A stretch of DNA of 20,213 nucleotides from a virus: IMG/VR virus record IMGVR_UViG_3300046792_000374, positions 1 through 20,213 of that record. One strand, given 5' to 3'. The notes below the pieces were generated by a model. It made no database searches and was not told the DNA's origin. It worked only from the letters and a program-made list of their open reading frames with translations. A program made the position numbers and the translations under genes. Positions 2,573 to 20,213 of the stretch are shown here, one piece after another (the first letter of the stretch is position 1; every line of letters starts with the position of its first letter).

Positions 2573-2695
2573 GACAGCCAGGAACGACCCGGCGGCGCCA
2601 AGCTTGAGAAAATTCGCACTGCCCCAGAGCGGGGCGCGGGTGTATCGTAGGGTCACGTCACGGCGCGGAACGCCGGGGAAAGGGAAGCTCAGAAA
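2573..2695. promoter_or_regulatory. Divergent intergenic region
   Basis: This 123-bp gap separates the minus-strand cassette from the capsid genes and contains no gene. It is locally less GC-rich (GAGAAAATTCGCA around 2606-2618). TATCGT at 2643-2648 on the plus strand and TACGAT at 2649-2644 on the minus strand overlap, so one AT-rich spot could serve as -10 element in both directions. A purine-rich ribosome-binding stretch (GGGAAAGGGAAG) at about 2676-2689 precedes the scaffold start. Confidence 0.45.
2643..2648 (+). promoter_or_regulatory. Candidate -10 element (TATCGT) for scaffold gene
   Basis: TATCGT fits TAnnnT and is preceded by TG. CTGCCC lies 18 nt upstream as a weak -35. The predicted leader to ATG 2696 is about 40 nt and contains a purine-rich Shine-Dalgarno, so this unit is not leaderless. 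Confidence 0.4.
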
Positions 2696-3424
2696 ATGCG
2701 GTTCGGTCTGTTTAGCGCGCTCGCCATGGGGGTTCTGAGGGACCCGAATCCGCCCGTGCCTGCCGGCGGCGGCGGCTCGCCTCCCCTCGCGCCGGCCCCT
2801 GCTGCCCCGCCTACGGCTCCCTTTGCGACCTTCGACAGTCAGGCGGCGCTCGATGACCGGCTCGCCCGAGCGGGGCGTGCGGCCCTGAGGGATGCGACGG
2901 GGCTCGAGAGCGCGGACGAGGTCAAGGCGCGGCTGGCGCGTCTCAAGCAGCTGGAGGATGCGGAGACCGAGCGCGCGCGCGCCGAGCTCACCGCCACCCA
3001 GCGCCTCGAGGCGGACCTGGCCACCGAGCGCGCGCGGGTGACGGCGATGGCAGCCGAGCGGGACCAGGAGCGGTTCCGATCGGTGGTGAGCGGGGCGTGT
3101 GCCCAGCTCGGGGTGAAAAACCTGAAATATGCGCAGTACCTGGTGGCGGAGGCGGCCGAGGCTTTGCCGGAGGGCCAGCAGCTCGACCCGGACACCTACC
3201 TCCGAGGGCTGCTCGAGAAACCCGAATACAAGACCGCGTTCGGCATCGAGGCGGTCCCGGCGGTTGTGCCGGCACCGGTGACCACCAGCCCGAACCCGGG
3301 CGCGCCTCCCCCCGCTCCGCCCGCTCCGGGCAATGGCGGAGGGCCCCCGGACGTGATGGCGATGAATCCGACCCAGTTCCGAGAGCACCTCGAGAAATAC
3401 GGCGCCGGCTCGGCGCTCTCGTAG
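2696..3424 (+). CDS. Putative capsid scaffolding protein
   Basis: 242 aa from ATG 2696 with purine-rich GGGAAAGGGAAG upstream; ATG 2726 is an alternative start. After a Pro/Gly/Ala-rich N-terminus (residues 15-45), residues about 50-135 are a continuous charged helical coiled coil rich in Arg, Glu, Ala and Leu (for example LARLKQLEDAETERARAELT). A short globular segment follows, then a Pro-rich linker (200-225) and a C-terminal helix MNPTQFREHLEKYGAG. Coiled-coil body, low-complexity linkers and position directly before the major capsid gene are the usual profile of phage scaffolds, which template procapsid assembly and then leave. No protease domain is seen in it. Assignment rests on architecture and synteny. 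Confidence 0.75.
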   Translation: MRFGLFSALAMGVLRDPNPPVPAGGGGSPPLAPAPAAPPTAPFATFDSQAALDDRLARAGRAALRDATGLESADEVKARLARLKQLEDAETERARAELTATQRLEADLATERARVTAMAAERDQERFRSVVSGACAQLGVKNLKYAQYLVAEAAEALPEGQQLDPDTYLRGLLEKPEYKTAFGIEAVPAVVPAPVTTSPNPGAPPPAPPAPGNGGGPPDVMAMNPTQFREHLEKYGAGSALS

Positions 3425-3428
3425 CCGG

Positions 3429-3457
3429 TTGCCCGGACCGTTCCGGACTGGTACGCT
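3429..3457 (+). promoter_or_regulatory. Candidate promoter for the major capsid gene
   Basis: TTGCCC (3429-3434), a 17-nt spacer, then extended -10 TGGTACGCT (TACGCT at 3452-3457). The spacer carries the inverted repeat CCGGA/TCCGG (3433-3437, 3442-3446), a possible operator. The predicted leader to 3576 is about 110 nt and has AGGAG at 3561-3565. Confidence 0.5.
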
Positions 3458-3575
3458 ACGGGCACAACCGAATTCCCCGTAGCGACTCAGCCCCCACGCA
3501 CACGCCGGCGGTTAACGGGCGGAACCTAGGCCAGTCGTCAACGGACCCCCCTCCCGACATAGGAGACGAGGCCCC

Positions 3576-4961
3576 TTGACCATCGTCCAAGGCATTCCCG
3601 CAATCATTTCGAGCATGATCCAGGACCGCACCCTGGAACGCATGTATCACGACTCCCTGTTCCCGAACCTGCTGTTCCGGGGAGAAGCCAAGCCCGAATT
3701 GTGGCAGGCGAACCTGGGCGAGCGGCAGATCTTCACCCGTACGGGGCTCATCGAGCCGGAAACCGATCCGCTGGTTCCCGGGCAGGATCCGACCCCCGGC
3801 GAGTACACCGCCGAGCAGTGGGAGGCCGAGGCCCGCCAGTTCGGCAAGACGATCCCGACCCACATGCCCACCAGCTATGTGAGCCTGGCGTCCACGTTCC
3901 TGCAGAACACCCAAAAGCTCGGCCTGCACGCGGCCCAGACGCTCAACCGTCTGGTGCGCGACCGGATGTTCCAGAGCTACCTGCAGGGCGAAACGGTGAC
4001 GCTCGCGGCGGTCGGCGCGGCCGTCAATCAGATCCAGGTGGCGAACCTGAACGGGTTCACCCAGCGGCTGGTTAACGGCCAGCTGCAGCCGGTGAGTCCG
4101 AGCAACCCGCTTCCGGTCACCTTCACGGTGGCCGAGCCCGCCAATACGGTGATCGGCTTTGCCCCGAGCAATCCCTTGCAGCCCCTCGGGCAAGGCACGC
4201 TCACGCTCGGCGCGGTGACCTCGGTGGGCATCGCCCAGCGCGCGGGCGTCTTGGCCTCCTCGCGCTCGCGGCGGCTACGGGTCGGCGGTGGCCTCACGGT
4301 CGACGGCATCACGTCCGTCAACATTGTGACCCTAAACACGTTCATCAGCGCGGTGAGCCGGTTGAGGGGTCAGAACGTCCCCCCGCATGCGGACGGCTAC
4401 TACCACGTGCACCTGACGACCCAGGCCGAGGAGCAGCTGTTCCAAGACAACCATTGGCAGCGCTTGCACCAATCCCTGCCGGACTCCACCTCCTACCGGG
4501 CGCTGGCGATCGGGATGGCGGTCGGGTGCATTTTCTACCGCAACACCGAGCTTCCGGACTCGTCCACGGTCAAGGCCTCGGCCATCGTGAGCGACGCGGG
4601 CGGCGGTGGCCTGGCGACCTCTACGGGCCAGATCGGTGGCGAGCTCACCACCGAGGCGGGCCTCACCATCCGCCGGGCGCTGGTCACGGGCGGCGGCTGC
4701 ATCTACGAGAAATTCCTGGACGAGTCCAAGTTCATCACCGAGGCCGGGGTGAACGGCAAGATCGGCCAGTTCAGCGTCATCAACGGCGGGGTGGCCATCA
4801 TGGCCCAGCGCATCCGCTACATCCTCCGGGCGCCCCAGGACTTGCTGCAGCAGGTCGTGAACCAAACCTGGAGCTGGAGCGGGGACTTCCCCGTCCCCTC
4901 CGACGCGGTGGTGGGCGACGGCGCCCGGTTCAAGCGCGCGGTGGTCATCGAGCACGGCTGA
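3576..4961 (+). CDS. Major capsid protein (HK97 fold, N4 gp56-like)
   Basis: 461 aa from a TTG start at 3576, with AGGAG at 3561-3565 and GAGG at 3568-3571 upstream; no better ATG lies in the conserved N-terminus. The N-terminal part (residues 1-40, IQDRTLERMYHDSLFPNLLF) and the segment YYHVHLTTQAEEQLFQDNHW with GMAVGCIFYRNTELP resemble N4 gp56-type major capsid proteins, in which an RLRG... region precedes the P-domain. A beta-rich stretch at about residues 140-225 may be an extended loop or insertion domain. It forms the icosahedral shell together with the scaffold encoded just upstream. It has its own promoter-like site and is followed by a strong hairpin, consistent with high separate expression. 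Size is somewhat larger than many HK97-fold capsids (300-400 aa). Confidence 0.85.
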   Translation: MTIVQGIPAIISSMIQDRTLERMYHDSLFPNLLFRGEAKPELWQANLGERQIFTRTGLIEPETDPLVPGQDPTPGEYTAEQWEAEARQFGKTIPTHMPTSYVSLASTFLQNTQKLGLHAAQTLNRLVRDRMFQSYLQGETVTLAAVGAAVNQIQVANLNGFTQRLVNGQLQPVSPSNPLPVTFTVAEPANTVIGFAPSNPLQPLGQGTLTLGAVTSVGIAQRAGVLASSRSRRLRVGGGLTVDGITSVNIVTLNTFISAVSRLRGQNVPPHADGYYHVHLTTQAEEQLFQDNHWQRLHQSLPDSTSYRALAIGMAVGCIFYRNTELPDSSTVKASAIVSDAGGGGLATSTGQIGGELTTEAGLTIRRALVTGGGCIYEKFLDESKFITEAGVNGKIGQFSVINGGVAIMAQRIRYILRAPQDLLQQVVNQTWSWSGDFPVPSDAVVGDGARFKRAVVIEHG

Positions 4962-5001
4962 GCCCTTTTGGAACGGGTGGGCCCCTACTCCCTCCCTCGG
5001 G

Positions 5002-5031
5002 AACGCCGGCAGTTTTAGAGCTGCCGGCGTT
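5002..5031 (+). terminator. Hairpin terminator after the capsid gene
   Basis: Perfect 11-bp inverted repeat: AACGCCGGCAG (5002-5012), 8-nt loop TTTTAGAG, CTGCCGGCGTT (5021-5031). It lies 40 nt after the capsid stop. Only a short TTT follows, so it may act as a weak intrinsic or processing and stabilising hairpin. The inverted repeat could work in either direction. Confidence 0.7.
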
Positions 5032-5047
5032 TGCCGTTCCTGGGGGC

Positions 5048-5551
5048 ATGAAACTGTTTTGGGTGGGCCTGTTGGCCCTGGGGTGCGGGGGCGGGGTGAG
5101 CGAGCAGCCGACCCCGGTCCACTATGATCTGACCGTGGCCGAGGACTGGAGCCCGGAGCAGACCGAGCAGATCCTGGACGCGGTGGACTTCTGGCGCGGC
5201 GAGCTCGGGGACTGGGTGGAGCTGCGGGTCACCATCGGGCCGTGCGACGCACAGACCCCGCGCTGTATCGCGGCGGTGCAGCGCGACGCGCCGGAGTTCG
5301 CAGAGGGGGCCGAGCGCAACGCCGAGGAGCTCGAGCGGGCGGGCGACGATCTGCGCATTGTCGGGCTGACGACCCACACCGCGATCTTGCTCGATCGGGA
5401 TTTCGCACGCCTCGGGGATGTGGCGCGCCACGAGCTCGGGCACCGGCTCGGCCTCATCCATGCCGATGGCGGGGTGATGGGGATTTGCGTGGGCAGCTCG
5501 GAAGTCACGCCGAAGGTGCGTGCCCACCTCGAGCTCCGCGGGCTGCGCTGA
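5048..5551 (+). CDS. Predicted lipoprotein metzincin-type zinc protease (moron-like)
   Basis: 167 aa from ATG 5048, which has GGGGG immediately upstream. Residues 1-13 are a short basic/hydrophobic signal (MKLFWVGLLALGC) with a plausible lipobox and Cys13 followed by GGG, so the mature protein would be lipidated and exported. Residues 128-138 read HELGHRLGLIH, the full HExxHxxGxxH zinc signature of metzincins, with Met144 in GGVMG as a likely Met-turn. His128, His132 and His138 would bind zinc and Glu129 would be the catalytic base. Cys66 and Cys73 could form a disulfide. The domain is minimal compared with matrixins (about 160 aa). It sits between the capsid hairpin and the head-completion genes, where structural function is not expected. 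Lysogenic conversion, virion-associated proteolysis or host-surface modification are inferences. Confidence 0.8.
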   Translation: MKLFWVGLLALGCGGGVSEQPTPVHYDLTVAEDWSPEQTEQILDAVDFWRGELGDWVELRVTIGPCDAQTPRCIAAVQRDAPEFAEGAERNAEELERAGDDLRIVGLTTHTAILLDRDFARLGDVARHELGHRLGLIHADGGVMGICVGSSEVTPKVRAHLELRGLR

Positions 5552-5580
5552 TTTCCAAACCTCGGGTCCGGGTGTAAGCT
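5552..5580 (+). promoter_or_regulatory. Candidate promoter, near-leaderless (TAAGCT)
   Basis: TTTCCA (5552-5557), 17-nt spacer, TAAGCT (5575-5580). Only 8 nt separate the hexamer from ATG 5589, where the transcript would be expected to start, and no Shine-Dalgarno is present. Confidence 0.5.
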
Positions 5581-5588
5581 CACCCGCA

Positions 5589-6224
5589 ATGGCACAGAGC
5601 AGCGCACCCGAGGAGGCCGAGGACGAGGCGAGCAAGGATGCGCTCTACGCGCGCGCGACCGAGCTGCGGGTGAAGGGGCGGCGCAAGATGAGCCGCGCCG
5701 AGCTCGAGGCGGCCGTGGCGGCAGCGGAGGCGGAGCTGGCGGCGGCGGAAAAGCCCCCGGGTGCGGAGCTCGGTGCGGACGAGGAGGCCAACGCGGAGGA
5801 GGCGGCGGCCCTGGCGGAGGCAGCGCTGGCGGGCAAGCCCCCCAAGCAGGCGACCCCGGAGCAGGCGCAGAAGATTTTCGCGGCGACCACCGAACAGCTC
5901 GAGGGGCTGACGAGCGATCCGGGCCTGGCCCCGCACCTGAAAAACCTCGTGGTGCAGGAGCTCGGCAAGCGCACGACCAAGGCGCGGGAGGAGAAAATGC
6001 GCGAGCAGGCCCGAGGGGCCATGGAGCGCTGGAAAGTCACCTCCTCGGGCGGGCGCTACATCACCCGCGACGGGTTCCCCACGGAGCTCGCGGCGGGCAG
6101 CGTCATCACCCCGATGACCCACGACCTGGAGCACGTCCGCAAACAGGGGTTCAAGCTCGTGGCGATCCATTCGCTCGGGGTGTCGCTGGACGAGCTCGGT
6201 AACCAAGTGAGCGAGGCAGGCTGA
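5589..6224 (+). CDS. Head-region protein with Rho-N/SAP-like domain
   Basis: 211 aa from ATG 5589, chosen because the TAAGCT element lies 8 nt before it; upstream in-frame sequence belongs to the end of the metzincin gene region. Residues about 15-47 (KDALYARATELRVKGRRKMS then RAELEAAV) match the helix-extended-helix pattern of Rho N-terminal or SAP-like domains, which can bind nucleic acid and often occur in phage head or connector proteins. Residues 50-95 are Ala/Glu-rich low complexity. Residues 95-145 are helical, and 149-200 form a compact domain (WKVTSSGGRYITRDGFPTEL, then THDLEHVRKQGFKL). Position between capsid and connector genes suggests a head-completion or DNA-contacting role. Its stop overlaps the next start as TGATG, so the pair is coupled. 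Confidence 0.65.
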   Translation: MAQSSAPEEAEDEASKDALYARATELRVKGRRKMSRAELEAAVAAAEAELAAAEKPPGAELGADEEANAEEAAALAEAALAGKPPKQATPEQAQKIFAATTEQLEGLTSDPGLAPHLKNLVVQELGKRTTKAREEKMREQARGAMERWKVTSSGGRYITRDGFPTELAAGSVITPMTHDLEHVRKQGFKLVAIHSLGVSLDELGNQVSEAG

Positions 6225-6364
6225 TGGCCACGGTGAAAAAGGGCGACGCGCCCAAGCCCAAGCCCGGTACGGCGAGCAAGATCAAGGGCGGGGAAACGGC
6301 GAGCAAGGGGAGCGGGGGCAAGCCCGCCCCGGTCGGCAAGATCAAGGGCGGCAAACCCTGCTAG
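6224..6364 (+). CDS. 46-aa Lys/Gly-rich protein with C-terminal Cys
   Basis: ATG 6224 overlaps the preceding TGA as TGATG and the gene ends at TAG 6362-6364. The 46-residue product is composed almost entirely of Lys, Gly, Pro, Ala and Ser, strongly basic and probably disordered. It carries an internal repeat: TASKIKGG near residues 16-23 and PVGKIKGG near 36-43, ending KPC. The coupling to the upstream gene and the placement of the next gene's promoter element on its stop codon support it as a real gene. A basic disordered peptide next to head genes could contact packaged DNA or another head protein, but no family is recognised. Confidence 0.55.
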   Translation: MATVKKGDAPKPKPGTASKIKGGETASKGSGGKPAPVGKIKGGKPC

Positions 6365-6367
6365 AGT
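6362..6367 (+). promoter_or_regulatory. Candidate -10 element (TAGAGT), leaderless
   Basis: TAGAGT overlaps the TAG stop of the 46-aa gene and lies 6 nt before GTG 6374. No Shine-Dalgarno is seen, and no good -35 is visible. Confidence 0.4.
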
Positions 6368-6373
6368 GAATCC

Positions 6374-6787
6374 GTGGCGTTCACCGAAATGGAAAAGGCT
6401 CGGATCCGGCACCACCTCGGATACCCGAGCTTTGCCTCCCTGGCCCAGGCGATCCAGCTCGGTTACCCCGCGGCGAGCCAGCCGCTGTTTTTGGTGGACG
6501 ACTCGTTCGGGCGGGTGACGCTCGAGGGCGAGGACGCGGCGCGGCGGGATCTGTGCGAGTGCGAGAGCATCGAAAAGCAGATGAGCGAGGCCCGCAGCCG
6601 CTACAAGGCGACCTCGCTCGGGGACCTCGTGGTCAACCCCCTCGAGCCGACCATGCTGCGCAACGATCTGGTTTACTGGCGCCAGCAGCTGGCCAGTGAT
6701 CTGATGGTGGTGGTCAACCCCTACGCGCCGCGCGAGTACTACGGGGCGATGGGAGCCGGTGGCATCAACGCCACGGTGACGGGGTGA
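6374..6787 (+). CDS. Head-tail connector-like protein
   Basis: 137 aa from GTG 6374, six nt after TAGAGT. The N-terminus MAFTEMEKARIRHHLGYPSF resembles the opening helix of phage head-tail adaptor proteins of the gp6/gp15 type. The rest is predicted helical (QAIQLGYPAA, then DLCECESIEKQMSEARSRYK) with a C-terminal segment containing VNPYAPREYYG. Small size, helical content and place between capsid and neck genes fit an adaptor that seats on the portal ring, although the portal gene itself is outside the window. No catalytic motif is present. Assignment is mainly by synteny. Confidence 0.6.
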   Translation: MAFTEMEKARIRHHLGYPSFASLAQAIQLGYPAASQPLFLVDDSFGRVTLEGEDAARRDLCECESIEKQMSEARSRYKATSLGDLVVNPLEPTMLRNDLVYWRQQLASDLMVVVNPYAPREYYGAMGAGGINATVTG

Positions 6788-6791
6788 TCGG

Positions 6792-7403
6792 GTGGGGCCT
6801 GCAAATCCTCGCGCTGGGGTGCCGCCTTTCGATCCAGGCGTGCACCCCAACCCTACGCCGGGCCGCTCGCTCGTGGAGGACCTGGGCGCGGTGGCCGACG
6901 ATCTGCGGCAGCTGTTCACAGATTTCGGGCTGCGTCCCTATCGGGTTTTCTCGGTGCTGCAGCGCTGGAGCGGGGGGCGAGTGGGCGCCGGAACGCTGGC
7001 GGTCGTGCGAGAGCTCGAGCTACTGCCCACGCCCTTGGTCGACCTCGGGCCCGTCAAGCGCAAGCACACCGAGGGCGGCGGCACCGAGGACGGCCAGTTC
7101 ACGCTACGACAACTGAGCCCGAGGCTGACCGAGGATCAGGTCCAGAGCCTGGTGGCGCCCGGAGGCCTCGGCCCGGGCGAGGAATCGTTCCTCGAGGTGC
7201 GCCACGATGCCCGAGACGGCCAGGAGCTGGCTCGGCGGCGGTTCACGGTGGTGGGGCCCCCGTTCCGCAAGGCGGGCCAGTTCGAGTGGCAGGTCCGGCT
7301 GACCAAGGCCAACCCCGATCGGGACCGGCAGGGCGACACGACCGGTGAGCGGCAGCAGTTCCCCGAGCGCCTGCGAAACCCGCTGATGTCCGAAGGGGAC
7401 TGA
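6792..7403 (+). CDS. Head closure-like neck protein
   Basis: 203 aa from GTG 6792, four nt after the preceding stop; GTG at 6822 or 6840 are later alternatives. After a Pro-rich N-terminus, residues about 25-75 contain LRQLFTDFGLRPYRVFSVLQ and RWSGGRVGAGTLAVVRELEL, followed by LLPTP. The C-terminal half includes LRQLSPRLTEDQVQSLV, then EESFLEVRHDARDG, and RRRFTVVGPPFRKAGQFEWQ. I have seen this arrangement (RWSGGR-G, ELLPTP, SPR-TEDQ, and a final RRFT-FQW beta segment) in phage neck/head-closure proteins. It lies between the connector and the gp10-like gene, the usual place of head closure. The stop is four nt from the next start, consistent with an operon. Confidence 0.6.
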   Translation: MGPANPRAGVPPFDPGVHPNPTPGRSLVEDLGAVADDLRQLFTDFGLRPYRVFSVLQRWSGGRVGAGTLAVVRELELLPTPLVDLGPVKRKHTEGGGTEDGQFTLRQLSPRLTEDQVQSLVAPGGLGPGEESFLEVRHDARDGQELARRRFTVVGPPFRKAGQFEWQVRLTKANPDRDRQGDTTGERQQFPERLRNPLMSEGD

Positions 7404-7406
7404 TCG

Positions 7407-7904
7407 GTGGCGCTCACCCGCCGGCGCCGGGGACTTGGCGGGCGGCTCACGCTCGACCAGTTCGCGGACCTGCTCGAGGATATGCCGAAGGAGCTGGAGG
7501 GCGCGGTGGTGCGAGGGCTGCGCTCGGCGGCGCTGCGGGGGGTGGGGTTCGTGACCGAGGAGATCGACGCCTCCAAACCCTACCCGCCGGTGAATTTCGG
7601 TCAGCTCCGGCAGAGCACCAAATGGGCCCCGTTGCCCAAGGGCGCCCAGGTGTTCAACGACGCGCCCCATTTCCCCTTCATGGAGTACGGGACGCGCCCA
7701 CACTTCCCGCCGGTGGCGCCGCTCATCGTCTGGGCGACGCGCAAATTCGGGGTGGACGAGGCCGAGGCCGAGGCGATCGCGTGGGCCGTCGCCAAGAAAA
7801 TCGCAAAGGAAGGCATCGAGCCGCGGGGGTTTTTCGCGCGCGGCATCGCCCGGATGCAGGCCATCACGACGGACGAGATTTCTCACGAGCTCGAATTGTT
7901 GTAA
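7407..7904 (+). CDS. HK97 gp10-like neck/tail completion protein
   Basis: 165 aa from GTG 7407. The central and C-terminal region carries the family pattern: an amphipathic helix ending GFVTEEIDASKPYPPVNFGQ, then FNDAPHFPFMEYGTRPHFPP, then APLIVWATRKFG and KIAKEGIEPRGFFARGI. The P-F-M-E-Y-G-T-R-P-H core is typical of HK97 gp10-like proteins, which join the head-tail interface and complete the tail. A basic N-terminus (RRRRGLG) is visible. The start is four nt after the previous stop. The stop codon TAA forms part of the TAAATT element preceding the next gene. I consider the family assignment secure by motif and synteny. Confidence 0.85.
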   Translation: MALTRRRRGLGGRLTLDQFADLLEDMPKELEGAVVRGLRSAALRGVGFVTEEIDASKPYPPVNFGQLRQSTKWAPLPKGAQVFNDAPHFPFMEYGTRPHFPPVAPLIVWATRKFGVDEAEAEAIAWAVAKKIAKEGIEPRGFFARGIARMQAITTDEISHELELL

Positions 7905-7907
7905 ATT
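7902..7907 (+). promoter_or_regulatory. Candidate -10 element (TAAATT), leaderless
   Basis: TAAATT begins on the TAA stop of the gp10-like gene and ends 6 nt before ATG 7914. The intervening GGGGCG is not a usable Shine-Dalgarno at that distance. Confidence 0.45.
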
Positions 7908-7913
7908 GGGGCG

Positions 7914-8441
7914 ATGCCCCGAGCGCGGAACTGGCTCGTCACGTTCACGGCAGAAGGAGTTCCCCTCGAGGCCACCGAGATCGAGGGCCCCGGGGATGCC
8001 GACTGGGTGGTGGTGACGGCAGAGAGCGCGGAGGAGGCGCTGCGGGTTTCGGTGCGCGCCTACGCGCGGCTGAAAAAGAAAAAGGTCCGAGCGCGACTCC
8101 ATGCCGAGGGGCGGTGCCGGTGTGGCAGGCCCCAGCGCGATGGGTTTAAAACCTGTCAGGTGTGCGCCGAATACATGAAACGCTATCGGGACCCCAAGCC
8201 GTGGGAGACCGCACCCAAGCCCATGGCCGAGCGGGACGAGGGCGCGCGAGTGCTCGCGTTCCAGGAGACGAGCCGCAATCGCAAGCAGGAGACCCGGCTC
8301 GAGGTGCTCCTGGAAGTGCGCAAGTGGTGGAAAGACGCGCCGCACACCGCGGCGTTTGCCGAGCGCCTGGCGACGGAAATCCAGGCGGCGGGGGGCGTGG
8401 ACCGTGCGGGGCAGGAGCGTGGTAAGCTGACCGGGTCATGA
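7914..8441 (+). CDS. Zinc-ribbon phage protein of unknown function
   Basis: 175 aa from ATG 7914. Residues 1-50 form a small alpha/beta part (WLVTFTAEGVPLEATEIEG, then WVVVTAESAEEALRVSVRAY). A basic stretch RLKKKKVRAR follows. Residues 66-84 are GRCRCGRPQRDGFKTCQVC, with Cys68, Cys70, Cys81 and Cys84 as likely zinc ligands; this C-x-C-G...K-T-C-x-x-C pattern is frequent in small phage proteins. The C-terminal 80 residues are charged and helical. The gene interrupts the usual neck-to-tail-terminator order, so it is probably an accessory gene. Nucleic-acid binding would fit the zinc ribbon and basic segment but is inference. Its end overlaps the next start as ATGA and carries that gene's promoter-like element. 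Confidence 0.65.
   Translation: MPRARNWLVTFTAEGVPLEATEIEGPGDADWVVVTAESAEEALRVSVRAYARLKKKKVRARLHAEGRCRCGRPQRDGFKTCQVCAEYMKRYRDPKPWETAPKPMAERDEGARVLAFQETSRNRKQETRLEVLLEVRKWWKDAPHTAAFAERLATEIQAAGGVDRAGQERGKLTGS
8420..8428 (+). promoter_or_regulatory. Candidate extended -10 element (TGGTAAGCT)
   Basis: TGG then TAAGCT (8423-8428), inside the end of the zinc-ribbon gene, 9 nt before ATG 8438. TGGACC at 8398-8403 is a poor -35 with 19-nt spacing. No Shine-Dalgarno lies next to the start. Confidence 0.45.
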
Positions 8442-9118
8442 GCGACCCACCCCCGATCGGTACCCTGCTCTACGCCACGGTGGGGCCCGACCGGATGCCG
8501 CTGGCGGCGATGAACGCGATCGACCCCCAGGACGCGGCCGCGCACACCCTGCAGGCGTACCTCGAGGCGGCGGTGTTCCGGGTGGCGGGCACTCCCGAGC
8601 AGCGCTTTCGGCTCAAGCGGGTGGCCATCGGCTGGCCCGAGAATTTCGAGGGCCTGGAGTATCCGACCTGTAGCCTCACGGCTCCCGTGGTCCAGGAGGA
8701 CGCGCACAGCCTGACCCCTACGGCGCTCGAGGAGACGCTCGATCGCTACTGCCCCGGGACCGTGCTCTGGAAAACCGCCGAGCAGGCGATCACGTTCCAA
8801 TGTGACTTTTGGTGCACCGACCAGGTGGAGCAGCGCGCGATCAGCGCGGCGCTGGGCGAGCTGTTCAACCCGACCGAGGGGCGCGCGGGCATCCTATTGC
8901 AGGGGCCGACAGACTACTGGGATTTGCCGATCCGCTTCACCCAGATGAGCCGGCAGCGCCAGAACTCGAGCGACTCGGTCCAGGCGCGCTCGCGGCGCCT
9001 CACGGTGATGGTGCTGGCGGACGTGGACGTGGTGCAGCTCCGGCGCGGCGCGCGCCTGCAGCCCCGGTTCTGGGTGAACGGTGAGCCAGTGGTGTTGGAG
9101 TCGGCCGGCCCGGCGTGA
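8438..9118 (+). CDS. Putative tail terminator / tail completion protein
   Basis: 226 aa from ATG 8438, overlapping the preceding TGA as ATGA. The N-terminal half is mixed alpha/beta (AAHTLQAYLEAAVFRVAG, then RFRLKRVAIGWPENFEG). The C-terminal half has a helix QVEQRAISAALGELFNPTEG followed by strands GILLQGPTDYWDLPIRFTQM and RRLTVMVLADVDVVQLRRGA. The order helix, 'f-p', ILL, P-x-Y-W-x-L-P-I and a final strand is what tail terminators and completion proteins show, and the gene lies immediately before the sheath, the classical position. It would cap the growing tube and sheath. It is longer than typical terminators (about 130-180 aa), so the assignment is moderate. Its TGA stop provides the TGA of the TGATACGCT element. 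Confidence 0.6.
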   Translation: MSDPPPIGTLLYATVGPDRMPLAAMNAIDPQDAAAHTLQAYLEAAVFRVAGTPEQRFRLKRVAIGWPENFEGLEYPTCSLTAPVVQEDAHSLTPTALEETLDRYCPGTVLWKTAEQAITFQCDFWCTDQVEQRAISAALGELFNPTEGRAGILLQGPTDYWDLPIRFTQMSRQRQNSSDSVQARSRRLTVMVLADVDVVQLRRGARLQPRFWVNGEPVVLESAGPA

Positions 9119-9124
9119 TACGCT
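9095..9124 (+). promoter_or_regulatory. Candidate promoter of tail sheath gene
   Basis: TTGGAG (9095-9100), 18-nt spacer, extended -10 TGATACGCT (TACGCT at 9119-9124), whose TGA is the upstream stop codon. The leader of about 32 nt has GAGGAG at 9147-9152, 11 nt before ATG 9164. Confidence 0.5.
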
Positions 9125-9163
9125 CCAAAGCGGTACAACCGAGACCGAGGAGCCCACTACGCT

Positions 9164-11365: not shown

Positions 11366-11397
11366 GCCACCGGCCCCCAAAAGAAAGACGCGAATAA

Positions 11398-11832: not shown

Positions 11833-11851
11833 AAGCCCACCCCACCCAAAC

Positions 11852-11903
11852 CACGGGGCACCGGGCGGGAGCACCTTTGCGGCTACCTCCGGCCCGCCCC
11901 GTG
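11852..11903 (+). terminator. GC-rich hairpin after the tail tube gene
   Basis: Arms CACGGGGC (11852-11859) and GCCCCGTG (11896-11903) pair perfectly. An inner stem pairs GGGCGGGAG (11863-11871) with CTCCGGCCC (11887-11895), one mismatch. There is no T-run, so this may be an attenuator or mRNA-stabilising hairpin rather than a clean terminator. Confidence 0.55.
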
Positions 11904-11930
11904 ACCTATCTGCAAAGGAGATTAGGTCAC
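11901..11930 (+). promoter_or_regulatory. Inverted repeat with ribosome-binding site in its loop
   Basis: GTGACCTA (11901-11908) and TAGGTCAC (11923-11930) form an 8-bp perfect stem. The 14-nt loop contains AAAGGAG (11914-11920), the Shine-Dalgarno for ATG 11932. The first three bases also belong to the preceding hairpin, so the two structures compete at that end. Confidence 0.6.
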
Positions 11931-11931
11931 G

Positions 11932-12698: not shown

Positions 12699-12700
12699 GG

Positions 12701-12706
12701 TAGACT
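12701..12706 (+). promoter_or_regulatory. Candidate -10 element (TAGACT), near-leaderless
   Basis: TAGACT lies two nt after the TAG stop of the chaperone fusion and 9 nt before ATG 12716 of the tape measure. No Shine-Dalgarno or convincing -35 was seen. Confidence 0.35.
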
Positions 12707-12715
12707 CCAGGGCCG

Positions 12716-14737
12716 ATGGCAGCTTCAACCCTAGACGTCCGGGCCACCCTGCTACTGCAGTCCAAGGGGGCCTATGGCGAGGTGCGCAAGGTGGCGGCCG
12801 AGGTCCGGAGCCTGGGCGATGGCCTGAAAACCACCCGCAGCGCCTTCCGGGATATGGTCGGGCAGGCGGTGGCGTTCGGGGCGGCGTACATCGGGGTGAG
12901 GGCCATCACCAACGCCGTGGTGGGCCTGACCAAGAGCGCGGTGGCCTACACGAGCGAGCTCGAGGCCAACAAGATCGGCCTGCAGAGCGTGCTGGCGGCG
13001 GTGGAGAACACCGACTGGGAGACGGCGGGCAAGCGCGCCACGGCGGCCTTCACCCAGATCCGCGACATGGCGATCAAGAGTCCGGCGACCTCGGCCGAGA
13101 TGTTCGACATTTTCAATAGCATTGTCGGCCCGGTGGAATCGGCGGGCTTCTCGATGCAGAAGGTCCTGGACCTGACCCAGGACACGGTGCTGGCGGCCTC
13201 GGCCCTGAACGAGGATTTCCCCCAGGCCTCCCGAGACATCAACATGATGGCCCGAGGGCTGGCGGGCGCCCACGTGAAGCTCTTTTCCATGTTGAAGGCC
13301 ACCGGCGCGATCAAGGAGGACGCGGAGGCGTTCAACGTGATGGCCCCCGAGAAGCGCATCGCGGCGATCGCGGCGGGCCTGAAAAAGTTCGCCAAGGGAG
13401 GCGAGGCGTTCGGCTCGTCTTGGAAGGGCGTCACCAGCACGCTCACCGACATTTTCGACGCTTTGAAGGCCTCGGCTTTCTCCCCGATCTTGAAGATCAT
13501 GGGGCGCAACCTGGAGCGCTTCAACGGCTACATCCTCCGGCACCGGGTGGAGATCGAAACGTTCCTGCTCAACGTGGGGCGCGACCTCGGTAACCGGATC
13601 GACACGCTGTTCCAAAAAGCGGAGCAGGGGTTCGGGTACATCCTCGAGCACTGGGATCAGATCGTGGACCGGTTCCACCAGGTGGTGACCAAGGTGAAGG
13701 AGGTGGCGCCGATCATCGCTCGGGCGGCCCTGGCCTGGGAGCTCACCAACCTCGGCCGCAACGTGGTGGGCGGCGCGCTCTCGGGCGGCGCGGCCCTGGC
13801 GAACATGGCGGGCGGGGCGGGGGAAGGCGCGGGGGCGCTCATCGACCTGGTGAAAAAGAGCCGCGCGGCCGCTCCCGCTCCCGAGATCACGAGGGCGATG
13901 CAGTTCGAGAGCCACCTGGGCGGGGGCCTCACCGAGGCCATGATGGCCGGCGGCGGCGGTGGCGGGGCAGCAGCAGCGGAGGGCGGAGCGGCAGGGGCCG
14001 AGGGCGGCATGGCGGCGTTTAGCGCGAGCCTGGTGGCGCTCGGGCCCGTCCTGGCGGTGATCGCCGTAGCCATCGCGGCGGTGGTGGCGGTCGGCCTGGC
14101 CATGGCCGAGCAGTGGAAAAACGTGGTCACCATCTTTGGGGAGACCGGCGGCCAGACGATGGCGATGCTGGTGGAGTTCGGCAAGGCGCTCTGGAGCACG
14201 CTCGGGCCGATCCTCAAGCTCATCGGCTCGGTGCTGCTCATCCCGCTCAGCTCGATGTGGCTCGTTTTTACCACCCTGCTGCGGGGCCTTCTGTTCGCGC
14301 TCACCGCGGTATTCGACGTGCTCGGCTGGGTGACCAATGCCATTTATCAGGAGGTCAAGCCGGCGTTTGATTTCATATTCGAGCTGTTCAAGGACCTGGC
14401 AGCGTTCATCAATAAGGTGTTTGGTGAGGCGAGTTCGGCCCTGAAAAGCGCCAAGGGGCCCAAGGCCACCGAGGCCGAGCTTTCGACGGAGCCGAATGCC
14501 GATTATAGCCGCTGGCTCAATAACGCCCCGCTCAGCTCGAGCACCATGGATCTGAGCAAAGCCCCGAAGGGTGCGGTGAACATCACCCAGGACTTCCGGG
14601 GCAGCCGCATCGCGATCCGCCAGGAGTTTAAGGGGGACGCCGATCCGGATCGGATCGTGATGGCCCAGATGGACGCGCTCACCCGCCAGGCAGAGAACCG
14701 GATTTCCTCCGGCTACGCCGGCGCGCTCACGAGGTAA
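12716..14737 (+). CDS. Tape measure protein
   Basis: 673 aa from ATG 12716. It is mostly helical, with a tape-measure N-terminus: an amphipathic helix (GEVRKVAAEVRSLGDGLKTT), a hydrophobic patch at 47-72, then a conserved region at 75-260 (TSELEANKIGLQSVLA, IKSPATSAEMFDIFNSIVG, DFPQASRDINMMARGLAGAH). A Gly/Ala-rich linker spans 405-433, followed by hydrophobic segments at about 441-464 and 497-533 that could insert into the host membrane during DNA ejection. The C-terminus is Gln/Arg-containing and soluble. Tape measure length sets tail length: at the commonly cited 0.15 nm per residue this predicts a tail near 100 nm. It follows the chaperone pair as usual. Confidence 0.9.
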   Translation: MAASTLDVRATLLLQSKGAYGEVRKVAAEVRSLGDGLKTTRSAFRDMVGQAVAFGAAYIGVRAITNAVVGLTKSAVAYTSELEANKIGLQSVLAAVENTDWETAGKRATAAFTQIRDMAIKSPATSAEMFDIFNSIVGPVESAGFSMQKVLDLTQDTVLAASALNEDFPQASRDINMMARGLAGAHVKLFSMLKATGAIKEDAEAFNVMAPEKRIAAIAAGLKKFAKGGEAFGSSWKGVTSTLTDIFDALKASAFSPILKIMGRNLERFNGYILRHRVEIETFLLNVGRDLGNRIDTLFQKAEQGFGYILEHWDQIVDRFHQVVTKVKEVAPIIARAALAWELTNLGRNVVGGALSGGAALANMAGGAGEGAGALIDLVKKSRAAAPAPEITRAMQFESHLGGGLTEAMMAGGGGGGAAAAEGGAAGAEGGMAAFSASLVALGPVLAVIAVAIAAVVAVGLAMAEQWKNVVTIFGETGGQTMAMLVEFGKALWSTLGPILKLIGSVLLIPLSSMWLVFTTLLRGLLFALTAVFDVLGWVTNAIYQEVKPAFDFIFELFKDLAAFINKVFGEASSALKSAKGPKATEAELSTEPNADYSRWLNNAPLSSSTMDLSKAPKGAVNITQDFRGSRIAIRQEFKGDADPDRIVMAQMDALTRQAENRISSGYAGALTR

Positions 14738-14747
14738 CCCCCCAGCC

Positions 14748-15956
14748 ATGGCGTTCGGATTTGGTGACAGCCAGCCCGGGGGCTCGGTGGAAATCCGCCA
14801 GCTCGAGGGCGACCGCCCCACCACCGTGGTGCTGCGCGGCCGGGCGATGCCCCACCGCGGCGGGGTGGCCTGGGAGCTCGAGCAGGCGAGCAAAATGACG
14901 TTCTACCCGGGCAACCCGGTGGGCACCCAGCAGCTGCTCGGGCCGCGCGAGGGTTCCACCAAAATGGCCGGGATGTGGAAAGACCGGTTCCTTTCGGGGG
15001 CCATCGTCAAGGACGGGGATCCGGGCGCGGTGACGACGGCGCTGGACGCCGTCCAGCTGTTCACCGAGCTGTTGCGCTCGGGCCGCAAGGTGCGGGTGCA
15101 GTGGGCCTCGTTCGTGCGCTCGGGCATCATCAAGCGGTTCGAGGCTACCCCGGACCGGGCCCAAGATATCGCTTGGGAGCTCGATTTCGAGTGGCAGAGC
15201 CGCGATGACGAGGCGGCGCCCCGGGCGACCACCGAGCAGAGCGCTCCCTCTGGCCAGGACCTGCTCCGCCGACAGAACCAGCTCGAGGACGTGGCGAGCC
15301 TGGCCCCGCCGAGCGCGGCGGAGGAGCTCGCCCGAGAGCTCGCCAGCATCACCTCGATGCGCGCTCAGCTCGCGGGGCTGGTCGACAATCTGCGCACGGT
15401 CGAGACGGTGGTGAACACCCCGGCGGCCGTCCGGGGCGCCCTAGTGAGCGCTGCGCGGAGCCTCGTAACGCAGCTCGAGGACTTCCGCCAGCGGATCCTC
15501 GGGCCTCGCTCGAGCGCGCGCCAGGGCCAGACGAGCCAGCGCGTGAAAGGGGACTATCAGTCGCCCACCGCGGTTGGGCGGCGCGGGGCGCCTCCGCCGA
15601 GCAGTTCCAGCGTCCAGGAGCTGCAGTTCGAGATCTGGTGTCGCTCGATGGGGCAAGCCGCCGGCGGGCTCTCGTTTCAGATCCAGCGGCTGGTGCTCGA
15701 TGTGCTCACCCGCACCCAGCCGCGGACGGCCCGGATCATCACCGCCCAGCAGGGCGATACGCTCTACGCCATCGCCACGCGCTTCTACGGCAGCCCGGAT
15801 TTTGCCAATTTCCTGGCGCTCACCAACCGGCTCACCTCGGCCGTGGTGCCTCCCGGCTACCAGCTGCGGATCCCCGAGCGCCCCTTTGGCGCTTCGGCCC
15901 GGGTCGAGCCGCTCACCGCGACTCAGCCCGAAGTGGGCGACGGGCGGTGCTGCTAG
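14748..15956 (+). CDS. LysM-containing tail hub protein (XkdP/DNA-circularization-like)
   Basis: 402 aa from ATG 14748, 10 nt after the tape measure stop. Residues 10-160 are a beta-rich domain (VEIRQLEGDRPTTVVLRGRA, then KMTFYPGNPVGTQQLLGPRE, and VQWASFVRSGIIKRFEA with AWELDFEW). A charged coiled region covers 170-265. A Gly/Pro/Ser linker follows, then a LysM-like domain at about 328-376 (ARIITAQQGDTLYAIATRFY to PPGYQLRIP). In PBSX and related phages the gene between tape measure and hub encodes such a protein with a C-terminal LysM; it helps connect tube and hub, and LysM may contact peptidoglycan. The stop TAG shares one base with the next start (TAGTG). Confidence 0.75.
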   Translation: MAFGFGDSQPGGSVEIRQLEGDRPTTVVLRGRAMPHRGGVAWELEQASKMTFYPGNPVGTQQLLGPREGSTKMAGMWKDRFLSGAIVKDGDPGAVTTALDAVQLFTELLRSGRKVRVQWASFVRSGIIKRFEATPDRAQDIAWELDFEWQSRDDEAAPRATTEQSAPSGQDLLRRQNQLEDVASLAPPSAAEELARELASITSMRAQLAGLVDNLRTVETVVNTPAAVRGALVSAARSLVTQLEDFRQRILGPRSSARQGQTSQRVKGDYQSPTAVGRRGAPPPSSSSVQELQFEIWCRSMGQAAGGLSFQIQRLVLDVLTRTQPRTARIITAQQGDTLYAIATRFYGSPDFANFLALTNRLTSAVVPPGYQLRIPERPFGASARVEPLTATQPEVGDGRCC

Positions 15957-17872
15957 TGGCGGTGTTTCGTCCCTCGGCCCGGGTGCGCCTCCAGCTGCGG
16001 ATCGATGAGATGGCCGACACCGGAACGCTCGAGGGCAAGCTCGCCCACCCCGCCCCGGTGGGGGCGACGGCGGGCCGCACCTTGCCAGCGACCAAGGCCG
16101 GTGCGCGCGCGGCGCTCGAGAGCAATTTCCAGCGCCGGGTCACGCTCAACCAGAACCGGGCGAGCCTGGCGGTGGATGCCCTGGCCCGGGAGCGCAGCGA
16201 GCTCGACCGCGAGCGGCAAAGCCTGCAGGCCATCACCACCGAGGGCCAGGCCCAGGCGGTGCCGGACGCGATCGACGAAAGCCGCGGGACCCAGGACGAT
16301 CTGAATGTGATTTTCAGCGTGCTGCCCCGCTCGTGTTCCATCGAGCGCAACCCGCTCAAGGATGCCGACACCGCCCGGCTCACCTTCGATTTTCGGGATG
16401 TGCCGGTCGACCCGCGCATCGTGCGAGCGTGTTTCGTTGCCATCAGCATGGGCACGGTGAGCGCGGACGACTACGCGGCGGGCATGGAGGGGCAAACCCG
16501 CGATGACGGGAGCCTCCGGAGCCTGGTGGCCCACGAATCCGGCGAGGAGATGCGCCTCGAGAGCGCCACGCGCTTTACCGGCTTTGCCGACCGTTGGGAG
16601 GTGACCTATGGCGAGGACGGCGACACCATCGAGCTCAATTGTCGCGATGTCTCGTCCGTGCTGCGGGACCAGCCGCTCTACAACGGCACGGGCAAGGCCC
16701 AGACCGTCGACTACGGCAAACCCATCGAGGAGGCGGTCCAGGAGCTGGTCGACGGGTTCGTGGCGACCCGCGGGATCCGGGTGATCCTGGGCACCCCCAC
16801 CAACCCGGACAACCCCCTCGAGGTGCTCGCCCCGCCGAGCAAGGAGCCCCCGATCCACCTGCTGCCCAAGACGAGCAAGAAGCGTAAGGGCAAGCAGAGC
16901 AAGGCGGCACCCAAGGAGCCGAACCAAAAGCTCTGGGATCACATCCTCGATTGCACGCTCCGGCTCGGGCTGGTGCCGGTGATGCGGAGCTTTACGCTCT
17001 ACCTGCTCGAGCCGCGGGTGATGTTTGCCGACCTCGAGAGCGCGCGCAAAATGATCTGGGGCCGCAACGTCAAGGAGCTCCGGTTCGCGCGCAAGCTCGG
17101 GGGGATGAAATGCGAGACGATCGAGGTTCGCAGTTTCGACGCCTCGATCGGCCGGACGCGCTGGGCGCGCTACCCGGTGCTCAAGGGGGAGCCCTCGAGC
17201 GGCATCCTCGGCAAGAAGGGCAGCCCCCAGCCGGTCACCACCCGGGCCAGCCATGTAAGTGCCAACGGCACGGCGGACGAACGCGTGCGGGTGCTCAGCG
17301 TGCCGAACGTGGCCGACCTGAAAACGCTGGAACTGGTGGCGGAACAGACCTTCAACGAGATGGGGCGCCAGGAGATCGAGGGCACGGTGGAGACCCACGA
17401 GATCGATTCGTTCGAGAGCGAGCAGGAGGGGGACCTCCTCCGGTTGCTGCCGGGTGAGGCGCTCCAGATCCTGGTAGCCTCGCCGGTCGAGACGGGCAAC
17501 ACGCTCGCGGCCGAGCTCGCCCCCAAACCCGTCCGGGGGACGAGCAACCTGCAGGAGCTCCACGACCAGAGCGTGGCGCGCCGGGTCGTATACCTCGAGA
17601 GCCTCGGCATCGCGCGGGCGACCGCCGAGCGGCTGGCGGAGGCCCAAGAAAAGGTGCGCCTCATCAGCAGCTTTCGGGTCCAGAGCGTGCAGCTCGACTG
17701 GAGCGCGGAGGACGGAATCGAGATGGGGATCCATTTCTCCAATTTCGTGGTCGTGCGCGAAGCTCCCAAGGACGTCACCCCCACCAAGGGCCCCAAAAAG
17801 TCTCTTTCGGCGACCGCTCAAGGGGTGGGGGTGCCGCAAACGGCATTCATGCAGAACCCGGATCGGTTCTGA
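15956..17872 (+). CDS. Baseplate hub protein (gp27/gpD/XkdQ-like)
   Basis: 638 aa from GTG 15956, overlapping the previous TAG by one nt; in-frame sequence before it is a shadow of the LysM gene. Residues 1-110 hold an Ala/Arg-rich, partly coiled-coil N-terminus. From about 115 (NVIFSVLPRSCSIERNPLKD, TARLTFDFRDVPVDPRIVR) begins the hub domain, with EVTYGEDGDTIELNCRDVSS and VLRDQPLYN near residues 215-250; such beta tracts occur in gp27/gp44-type hub proteins. A Lys-rich segment (TSKKRKGKQSK) is near 300. The C-terminal third contains long helices, then SSFRVQSVQLDWSAEDGIEM. It is expected to form the trimeric hub under the tube. The stop overlaps the spike start (TGATG). Confidence 0.7.
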   Translation: MAVFRPSARVRLQLRIDEMADTGTLEGKLAHPAPVGATAGRTLPATKAGARAALESNFQRRVTLNQNRASLAVDALARERSELDRERQSLQAITTEGQAQAVPDAIDESRGTQDDLNVIFSVLPRSCSIERNPLKDADTARLTFDFRDVPVDPRIVRACFVAISMGTVSADDYAAGMEGQTRDDGSLRSLVAHESGEEMRLESATRFTGFADRWEVTYGEDGDTIELNCRDVSSVLRDQPLYNGTGKAQTVDYGKPIEEAVQELVDGFVATRGIRVILGTPTNPDNPLEVLAPPSKEPPIHLLPKTSKKRKGKQSKAAPKEPNQKLWDHILDCTLRLGLVPVMRSFTLYLLEPRVMFADLESARKMIWGRNVKELRFARKLGGMKCETIEVRSFDASIGRTRWARYPVLKGEPSSGILGKKGSPQPVTTRASHVSANGTADERVRVLSVPNVADLKTLELVAEQTFNEMGRQEIEGTVETHEIDSFESEQEGDLLRLLPGEALQILVASPVETGNTLAAELAPKPVRGTSNLQELHDQSVARRVVYLESLGIARATAERLAEAQEKVRLISSFRVQSVQLDWSAEDGIEMGIHFSNFVVVREAPKDVTPTKGPKKSLSATAQGVGVPQTAFMQNPDRF

Positions 17873-18684
17873 TGGGACGACGCAGCCGTCGCACCCCCGA
17901 TGCCCGCCGGATCGGAGCTGCGGTTTCGCACCCCGGCATCGACCCGCGTACCTGGGCCTCCTCCGGGCGCATCGATGAAGATCCGGACGCGGTGCATTTC
18001 GACGCGGGGGTGGGCTGGATCGTGGACGTGACCCTCACCGGTAGCGGCCTCGAGGATGACGAGTCGCGGCCCTGCCGGCTCGTGTCCTTCGGCTCGGCGG
18101 GGCAAGGCCGAGGCGAGTACCTGCCCCCCGCGCGCGGCGCGGAGGTGCTGGTGGTGGTGCCGGCGGGAGACATCGAGAGCGGACCGGTGGCGGTCGGGTA
18201 CCTCACCAACGAGGACGACGCCCACCCGCCCGACACCATCAACCAGATCCCCATTTCTCCCGAGTCCCCCTCGAGCTCGGATCTGTCCGTGTCTCCGTTT
18301 GACACCGAGATCGTGAGCAGCAGCCACCACCGCCGCGAGGAGTACGCCGGAGACCGCCACATCCAGGCCAAGAGCCAGATCATCGAGGCGACCGAAACGG
18401 TCAAGCTCGCGGTGCGCGATGCCCTGCAGAGCTACGTGCGGGGCGAGCGATTCGTGGAGGCCCTCAACGGCTGGATCGACGCGGTGACCAAATATGTCAC
18501 CAAGAACGGCGAGGCGGATCTGGCCGTGTATACGGCGCTCAATCTGCTGGCGCCCGGGTCGATTACCCCCGATCAGATCGGCGCGGTGGTGGCGGCCATC
18601 GTCCAGAGCGAGGACCAGAGAGCGCGCTTCCAGGCGGCGGCGGTGGCGGGCGATGCCCTGAGCGCGCGCATCAAGGGCGACTAG
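17872..18684 (+). CDS. Baseplate spike protein (gpV/gp5-like OB domain)
   Basis: 270 aa from ATG 17872, overlapping the hub stop as TGATG. Residues about 45-113 form an OB-fold pattern of the gp5/gpV/VgrG type: GWIVDVTLTGSG, then CRLVSFGSAGQGRGEYLPPA, RGAEVLVVVPAGD, and GPVAVGYL. After a Ser/Pro linker, a short run HIQAKSQIIEATETVKLAVR may be a single triple-helix turn. Residues 190-270 are helical and acidic/Ala-rich, unlike the long beta-helix tip expected in this family. The protein caps the hub and pierces the outer membrane; the N-terminal assignment is firm, the C-terminal role unknown. No lysozyme motif is present. Confidence 0.75.
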   Translation: MGRRSRRTPDARRIGAAVSHPGIDPRTWASSGRIDEDPDAVHFDAGVGWIVDVTLTGSGLEDDESRPCRLVSFGSAGQGRGEYLPPARGAEVLVVVPAGDIESGPVAVGYLTNEDDAHPPDTINQIPISPESPSSSDLSVSPFDTEIVSSSHHRREEYAGDRHIQAKSQIIEATETVKLAVRDALQSYVRGERFVEALNGWIDAVTKYVTKNGEADLAVYTALNLLAPGSITPDQIGAVVAAIVQSEDQRARFQAAAVAGDALSARIKGD

Positions 18685-18696
18685 CCGGCGGCCCCC

Positions 18697-18705
18697 TGGT
18701 ATCCT
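18697..18705 (+). promoter_or_regulatory. Candidate extended -10 element (TGGTATCCT)
   Basis: TGG then TATCCT (18700-18705), in a 30-nt gap, 9 nt before ATG 18715. The intervening GGGGGGAG is a possible but very close Shine-Dalgarno. The -35 is unclear. Confidence 0.45.
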
Positions 18706-18714
18706 CGGGGGGAG

Positions 18715-20213
18715 ATGAGCGCCCAAGTCAAGATCGACCAGGCCACCCTCGCCCCGGCGGGCACGGCTGGCAAGTCACGCACCGATGGCAAGAGCGGCGG
18801 CCAGCTGGTCACGCTCACCAATACGGGGCTCGGGACCACCACCCGATTCCGACTGCTCTGGGTGCCGCCCGGTGACACCACCGCGGTGGCCTCGCTGGTG
18901 CAGACGGGCCCGAAGGTGTGGACGTTCAGTCCCACGGCGAGCCAGCCGGGCACCTATCGGATCCAGCTCATCGAGGACGAGGGCCGCCCGAGCGAACGGC
19001 GCGAGGTCCGCACGTTCAAGGTGAGAACGCCGATCTTTGGCCTCACCATCCCGGCCCTGAACGAGGTGGGCGACGCGAGCGCCAGTATGGTCAATGCAGG
19101 CGCGGCGCAGATCGAGGCGGCCGAGGACAATGCCGACGATTACACGATCGCGAGCTTGAACACGCGGCGCTTTGCGGCGTGGTGGCGCTGGGTCCACGAG
19201 CTCACACTGGCGCTCGAGGCGACCTTTGTTCGCGCGACGGGCTCGGCCAACGGCTTTGCGAGCCGCACTGTTTACGATTTCTCCACCGCTCCCACCTTCA
19301 CGACGGCGGCGGACATCCCCCCCGGCAATTTCTTTCTGTGCATTTTGCGCGGCCCCTCCGGGGGCTCGGGTGCGGGCGCACGCGGGGCTAACACCAACGT
19401 CTTGGGCGGCGCGGCGAGCGGTGGCGGGGCCTGCCATCGCTGGCTGATGACCCGCCAGCAGTTCATCGCGATGCTACCCGTAGTGCTCACTTTGCCCGAT
19501 GGCGGCGCCGGCGGCACGCTCGCGGCCGGAGTGGGTTCGGCCAACGGCGGCAGCGGGGTGGCCGCCTCCGGCGGGGCGCTGTTTTCCGGAACCGGGTTCA
19601 AGGGCTTTGCAGGTTCGGGGGCTCCGGGTACGGGAGGCGGAGTCGCGGGCAACGGCGGGGGCGGCGGAGGCCTCTGGGGCAATGGCAACGTGCTCGCCAG
19701 CGGAAACGGCGGCCGTCCAGCGAGCACGGGCGCGAGCAGCGGCGGCGGCGGCAGCTCGACCGAGCACGATAACTATTCTTTTGGTGGCGGCTTTGGTGTG
19801 CAGAACTCGGGCGGTGCGGGCGCCGGCCTAGCCGGTAATGCCACCGATGGCGGCGGCGGAGGCGGAGGAGACCCTAACTCTGGCGGAATCGTCACCGCTG
19901 GCGGCAGTAGCCTACGCGGCAGCGCCGGCGGCGGCAGTGGCGGCACGACAGCCGCGGCGGCGGCGAGTAACGGCGGCGATGGCGGCTCGACGGGCAATTC
20001 GGCGACGGGTCTGGCCGTGGGAGGGGGCGGACTCGGTGGCCTGATTGCCGGGCCCAAGAACGGTACGCCGGGCGTGGATGCGACCGACACCGTTGGCGCC
20101 ACGGGCAGCGGCGGCGGCGCCTCGGCACGCGGTGCCGGGGCCCAGGCGGCAGGCGACGGCGCGGCGGGCGCGGCAGGCGGCGGTGGCGCGGGCGGCGGAG
20201 GAGCCGTCACATC
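18715..20213 (+). CDS. Glycine-rich tail fibre/adhesin, 3' end outside window
   Basis: Open from ATG 18715 to the last base (499 codons visible, no stop). Residues about 25-105 look like an immunoglobulin-like sandwich: GGQLVTLTNTGLGTTTRFRL, then WTFSPTASQPGTYRIQLIED. Residues 110-165 are a helical neck (IPALNEVGDASASMVN, then FAAWWRWVHELTLALEATF). From about 214 the chain is low complexity: very high Gly, with Ala, Ser, Thr and Asn, in runs such as GGGGGGLWGNGN and SAGGGSGGTT, interrupted by short hydrophobic or charged positions. Some phage adhesins fold polyglycine helices into a sandwich, and this tract could do the same; alternatively it is a disordered stalk. The position after the spike suits a host-contact protein. 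The receptor cannot be predicted. Confidence 0.7.
   Translation, partial: MSAQVKIDQATLAPAGTAGKSRTDGKSGGQLVTLTNTGLGTTTRFRLLWVPPGDTTAVASLVQTGPKVWTFSPTASQPGTYRIQLIEDEGRPSERREVRTFKVRTPIFGLTIPALNEVGDASASMVNAGAAQIEAAEDNADDYTIASLNTRRFAAWWRWVHELTLALEATFVRATGSANGFASRTVYDFSTAPTFTTAADIPPGNFFLCILRGPSGGSGAGARGANTNVLGGAASGGGACHRWLMTRQQFIAMLPVVLTLPDGGAGGTLAAGVGSANGGSGVAASGGALFSGTGFKGFAGSGAPGTGGGVAGNGGGGGGLWGNGNVLASGNGGRPASTGASSGGGGSSTEHDNYSFGGGFGVQNSGGAGAGLAGNATDGGGGGGGDPNSGGIVTAGGSSLRGSAGGGSGGTTAAAAASNGGDGGSTGNSATGLAVGGGGLGGLIAGPKNGTPGVDATDTVGATGSGGGASARGAGAQAAGDGAAGAAGGGGAGGGGAVT

Follow-up and report, generated by a model that had tools for sequence, protein, structure and literature searches.

Phage late genes are usually seen as sharing one long transcript or a small number of them, with translation as the main determinant of stoichiometry. 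Whether single virion genes inside such an operon may have promoters of their own, placed so close to the start codon that the mRNA would have no leader, is the question raised by IMG/VR virus record IMGVR_UViG_3300046792_000374. Its 20,213 nucleotides (nt), analysed as a whole and called the window here, hold the head-to-tail region of a contractile-tailed phage. The initial annotation of this DNA had proposed that TAnnnT elements 6-9 nt before start codons reflect leaderless transcription within the structural operon. That interpretation is supported by the enrichment of the element, by −35 and extended −10 signals, by the absence of Shine-Dalgarno (SD) sequences and by retention at orthologous genes; on these sequence grounds, the TAnnnT hexamers are very probably the −10 boxes of leaderless sigma-70-like promoters inside the late operon.

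TAnnnT hexamers in the window

The six hexamers originally named all lie where they had been placed, 6-9 nt before a start codon (Table 1). TAnnnT occurs just 34 times on the plus strand of the window, and it is found at −15 to −12 before six of the 19 plus-strand gene starts, against 0.13 expected (mean of circular shifts of the gene starts). The shifted starts gave a maximum of three, and none of 200,000 shifts reached six (binomial p=2e-9), in keeping with the earlier judgement that AT-containing hexamers would be unlikely here by chance. Within −15 to −12, T is the sixth letter after six of the eight TA dinucleotides (base frequency 0.15, p=2e-4). Two details of the initial annotation need amendment. 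TACGCT, said to occur twice, is present five times on the plus strand (3452, 9119, 9158, 15758 and 16993). The TG reported before several sites is a true extended −10 (TGn) at 6362, 8423, 18700, 3452 and 9119; at 5575, 7902 and 2643 it abuts the hexamer.

Enrichment and promoter geometry in related phages

For eight related records, gene calling relied on a codon-usage model blind to promoters and SD sequences, and starts were set by two rules. The resulting 571 starts include those of G001, a 61,005-nt record which is 99.96% identical to the window over 13.7 kb and is the same phage; it supplies nine of the 58 TAnnnT sites in the set. At −16 to −12, TAnnnT precedes 55 of the 571 starts versus 3.5 expected, a 16-fold excess that ranks first amongst 64 XYnnnZ motifs. 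The peak is sharp, with 23 sites at −13, 25 at −12 and one or two at each other position. Comparison with background is strongly positive both in the window and in the related phages. At the standard −10 to +1 distance, a hexamer at −12 would make +1 coincide with the first letter of the start codon. SD-like sequence accompanies six of the 58 TAnnnT-led starts, compared with 303 of the 513 others (p=3e-13), and the remark that most of these starts lack an SD sequence holds equally for the relatives.

The surrounding bases, which played no part in site selection, resemble those of a promoter. A T at −23 from the hexamer, equivalent to a 17-nt spacer, is present at 53% of sites against 16% around control TAnnnT (p=5e-11); just downstream of it, position −21 is G at 62% of sites and −20 is C at 55%. 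The extended −10 TGn is found at 38% of sites against 5% of control TAnnnT. The relatives thus show the −35 with a 16-18 nt spacer and/or the TGn of sigma-70-type promoters, features that are weak at several individual window sites.

These data bear on two other readings. The hexamers could arise incidentally from stop codons and from AT bias where genes meet, and indeed at two of the six window sites (6362 and 7902) the TA belongs to the stop codon of the upstream open reading frame (ORF). Amongst the relatives, however, just seven of the 58 sites use an upstream stop. Moreover, of 54 hexamers with TA at −13 or −12, 48 end in T (89%), versus 21% at control positions, which a stop-codon origin leaves unexplained, as it does the −35 and TGn signals. 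The peak is also missing from control phages whose G+C content is similar or higher (Myxococcus phage Mx8, 0/68; Streptomyces phage Kromp, 1/73; Komagataeibacter phage phiKX1, 1/50). The conditional sixth-letter test, together with the −35 and TGn columns, rules out such an artefact, to which we attach next to no probability.

Alternatively, all late genes might be read from one upstream promoter, the elements acting as signals at the level of RNA or DNA binding, such as processing sites, repressor operators or reinitiation sites. A small number of promoters commonly serves a late phage operon, and most of the TAnnnT junctions are short enough for translational coupling, both of which would suit this arrangement. 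Against it, the 17-nt −35/−10 spacing, the extended −10 and the fixed 6-7 nt to the start codon constitute promoter geometry, and a matrix built from these sites locates the capsid promoter in relatives (see below). We consider a single promoter with such signals highly improbable.

Genes that carry the element

The element is kept at orthologous genes whose proteins otherwise share 24-53% identity; the motif is both enriched before starts and retained gene by gene across related phages. It is present at −18 to −9 in ten of 15 tape-measure orthologs and in six of seven orthologs of the fibre-like gene, none of which has an SD sequence. The 6362 element recurs at the ortholog of the GTG 6374 gene in G005, L005 and L021, and the 8423 element at that of the ATG 8438 gene in G004, G005 and L024; the gene behind the 7902 element (ATG 7914) has no ortholog outside this phage amongst the compared loci. 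In G001 the element is also found at the portal gene (TAGACT) and the baseplate J gene (TAGGAT). At the capsid gene TAnnnT is found in none of 16 orthologs, and all 16 have an SD sequence; the counts for sheath and tube orthologs are one of 18 and one of 17. The claim of leaderless elements in the structural operon thus applies to the tape-measure, portal, baseplate J and fibre-like genes and to several connectors, and does not extend to capsid, sheath and tube, which have SD initiation. Grouped post hoc into low-copy and high-copy genes, an assignment resting on general knowledge of tailed phages, the genes differ in carriage of the element at p=2e-9.

A second division separates early from late genes. 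The region 28-56 kb of G001 is the early/replication block, with a Sak4-like protein, an exonuclease and ATPases amongst its genes. The element precedes none of its 44 starts, compared with ten of 40 elsewhere (p=3e-4), and none of 51 orthologs of early-block genes versus 36 of 228 others. By gene length, TAnnnT-led starts in the eight records number 25 of 133 for products of at least 300 amino acids (aa), ten of 203 for 150-299 aa and 15 of 237 for <150 aa.

Predicted leadered promoters at the capsid and sheath genes

A weight matrix trained solely on start-codon-proximal sites was applied independently. The TACGCT at 3452 is a textbook promoter match, and in most relatives the capsid gene has an equivalent site 104-144 nt upstream, often TTGC-N17-TAnnnT. 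Between −150 and −96, ten of 17 capsid upstream regions score at least 11, where chance would give 1.6% each (p=2e-14). The site at 9119 has the top matrix score on the strand (15.5), and similar-scoring sites lie upstream in about half of the relatives. Of the similar hexamers pointed out before genes with leaders, then, those at 3452 and 9119 are borne out as predicted promoters. TATCGT at 2643 has a weak matrix score, and is unsupported as a promoter.

The second-highest score on the strand belongs to TGGTAGCCT at 17475-17480, inside the gene at 15953-17872. It may act as a promoter, internal to that gene, for 17872-18684, or may have arisen by chance in coding sequence.

Possible host and polymerase

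A search with the sheath protein matched 25 IMG/VR loci (34-100% identical) and one contig of a deltaproteobacterial metagenome-assembled genome (MAG), and gave no match amongst 50,697 phage records; the phage is a member of an uncultured lineage. The MAG (G009) carries a phage relative, and its own genes show the same TAnnnT peak, with 28 sites at −15 to −12 amongst 224 starts; like those of the window, these are distributed across −12 to −15, and their TGn is weak. A deltaproteobacterial (myxobacterial-type) host is plausible. No tRNA gene that might point to a host was found in G001. Leaderless TANNNT genes have been reported in eight of 33 delta-proteobacterial genomes, at a mean of 15.8% of genes (PMC3160421), and experiments in Deinococcus showed that the motif functions as a −10 (PMC12340547). 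That the pattern is a general trait of phages from leaderless-rich or related hosts is not supported by the counts for Kromp, Mx8 and phiKX1 given above. Three contigs of the MAG (PRO4 C404, C267 and C249) hold sheath relatives at 44%, 43% and 33%, and perhaps represent several phages or a tailocin.

The elements might instead be real −10 boxes for a polymerase that the phage encodes or modifies, forming a late-specific class under a phage factor. Their absence from the early/replication block would fit this, as would a −35 consensus of TTGC/TNGC and not TTGACA. On the other hand, the deltaproteobacterial MAG genes carry this TAnnnT signal too, with weak TGn, and a search limited to the Sigma70_r2 family (PF04542) found no match in the eight related records, all of which may be incomplete. 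A phage sigma factor of that family is rejected on this result, and a dedicated phage polymerase or factor seems unlikely overall. An activator or sigma appropriator of unknown family could still play such a part, and a phage activator could confine these promoters to late times.

Proposed mode of late gene expression

Under the favoured interpretation, that of leaderless sigma-70-like promoters, a host-type polymerase would read TAnnnT as the −10, 6-9 nt before the start codon, and transcription would begin at or within about 3 nt of that codon, giving a leaderless mRNA. Low-copy virion genes (tape measure, portal, baseplate J, fibre-like and some connectors) would then be transcribed individually and translated without an SD sequence, their leaderless transcripts adding to read-through from upstream. 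Capsid, sheath and tube would use SD initiation; about 110 nt before the capsid gene lies a predicted leadered promoter, TTGC-N17-TAnnnT, of the same class but stronger. Leaderless promoters may, tentatively and with nearly even probability, be a stoichiometry device, in which low-copy proteins are made from their own leaderless promoters and high-copy proteins via leadered SD mRNA, and early genes have no leaderless starts.

Several points weigh against this interpretation. Starts were taken from a home-made gene caller, and the orthologs are related, so that p-values overstate independence; the early/late and copy-number groupings were made with data already seen. Three of the six window sites are at −15, off the −13/−12 peak of the relatives, so that leaders of 1-3 nt are possible, and −35 matches are poor at several (6362, 8423 and 18700). 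The MAG contig that carries the relative contains phage-like genes only, all on one strand, and this relative has a single TAnnnT site (1/54), at the tape-measure gene.

Comparison with known systems

In bacteria, leaderless genes are known whose Pribnow box, TANNNT, lies about 12 nt ahead of the start codon (Zheng et al., 2011, PMC3160421; for Deinococcus-Thermus, PMC12340547). The related phages likewise have TANNNT about 12 nt upstream above background, mostly without SD sequences. The likeness extends to the hexamer, its distance, high G+C content, some TG signal and the inclusion of delta-proteobacteria; the difference is that the window phage has these elements in a late operon, at specific virion genes, conserved gene by gene amongst phages. 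In Cluster O mycobacteriophages (the Corndog group), leaderless SigA promoters have been predicted (PMC4351075), and there too +1 falls on the start codon's first base. Those are few: they lie in an intergenic region between divergent genes and before a single leftward gene of the structural operon, whereas the window phage has many in one co-directional structural operon.

The middle and late promoters of Thermus phage P23-45 are of the extended −10 class and are used by the host RNA polymerase, as cited in two papers (PMC7403470, PMC10770324). To that extent the two phages are alike in having extended −10 promoters for middle and late genes, use of the host polymerase being probable in the window phage; in contrast to P23-45, no phage sigma-remodelling factor was identified in the window phage. 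In the first 50 kb of P23-45 (57% G+C), TAnnnT is near background (four versus 2.5 expected). Its middle and late transcripts are reportedly leaderless.

Leaderless genes with TANNNT, and a small number of predicted phage promoters without leaders (PMC4351075), were already known. Searches of the open-licence literature found no late operon with many leaderless promoters that are conserved gene by gene and set apart from capsid, sheath, tube and early genes. From sequence alone, about ten late promoters are predicted in this one genome, most of them leaderless; their placement follows protein class and persists across wide divergence. The use of leaderless initiation by a virus can be put to the test here, and gene callers that expect an SD sequence may misplace such starts.

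Genome and gene map

Window positions 1-13733 align with G001 13733-1, and 18276-20213 with G001 61005-59068. The intervening 13734-18275 bridges both ends of G001, which suggests a circular or circularly permuted genome of about 65.5 kb. A scan with the protein encoded at 14748-15956 found no relatives.

Table 1. Predicted promoter elements and genes of the window
Feature	Position	Strand	Remarks
Scaffold	2696-3424		
Predicted leadered promoter, TTGCCC-N17(TGG)-TACGCT	3429..3457	+	Upstream of capsid gene; score 13.4; predicted leader ~110 nt
Major capsid protein gene	3576..4961	+	phrog_1357, E=1e-8; SD led
Connectors	After major capsid		
Putative −10 TAAGCT, candidate leaderless promoter	5575..5580	+	8 nt before ATG 5589; TTTCCA at 5552, 17-nt spacer; score 13.1
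Putative −10 TAGAGT with TGn	6362..6367	+	6 nt before GTG 6374; TAG is stop of a 46-codon ORF
Neck gene	7407-7904		
Putative −10 TAAATT	7902..7907	+	6 nt before ATG 7914; TAA is neck gene stop codon
Putative −10 TAAGCT with TGn	8423..8428	+	9 nt before ATG 8438
Predicted leadered promoter, extended −10 TGATACGCT	9096..9124	+	Upstream of sheath gene; predicted leader ~30 nt with GAGGAG
Inferred tail sheath gene, 733 aa	9164..11365	+	From position and size, no family match; SD led
Tube-like gene	11398-11832		Name from position and size
Chaperone-like genes			Names from position and size
Putative −10 TAGACT, tape-measure gene	12701..12706	+	9 nt before ATG 12716; score 13.7
Tape-measure protein gene	12716..14737	+	phrog_167, E=4e-7
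Hub/baseplate genes	Up to 18684		
Putative −10 TATCCT with TGn	18700..18705	+	9 nt before ATG 18715
Glycine-rich distal tail/fibre-like gene	18715..20213	+	Named from sequence, no family match; continues past window end

Between the capsid and connector genes lies a small gene (5048-5551), restricted to this phage amongst the compared loci, with weak similarity to matrixin (M10) and a zinc-protease-like motif, HELGHRLGLIH. On the minus strand, a 52-nt repeat with two copies 81% identical (1910-1961 and 2224-2275) contains GTCGTTCCT...CAACTGGCCC...GGGGCCCCGAAAG. Both copies are directly upstream of minus-strand genes (starts 1904 and 2217), and the repeat core GTCGTTCCTG is found again at ~2580-2590, ahead of a third possible start. 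The repeat may be a regulatory element common to the leftward genes.

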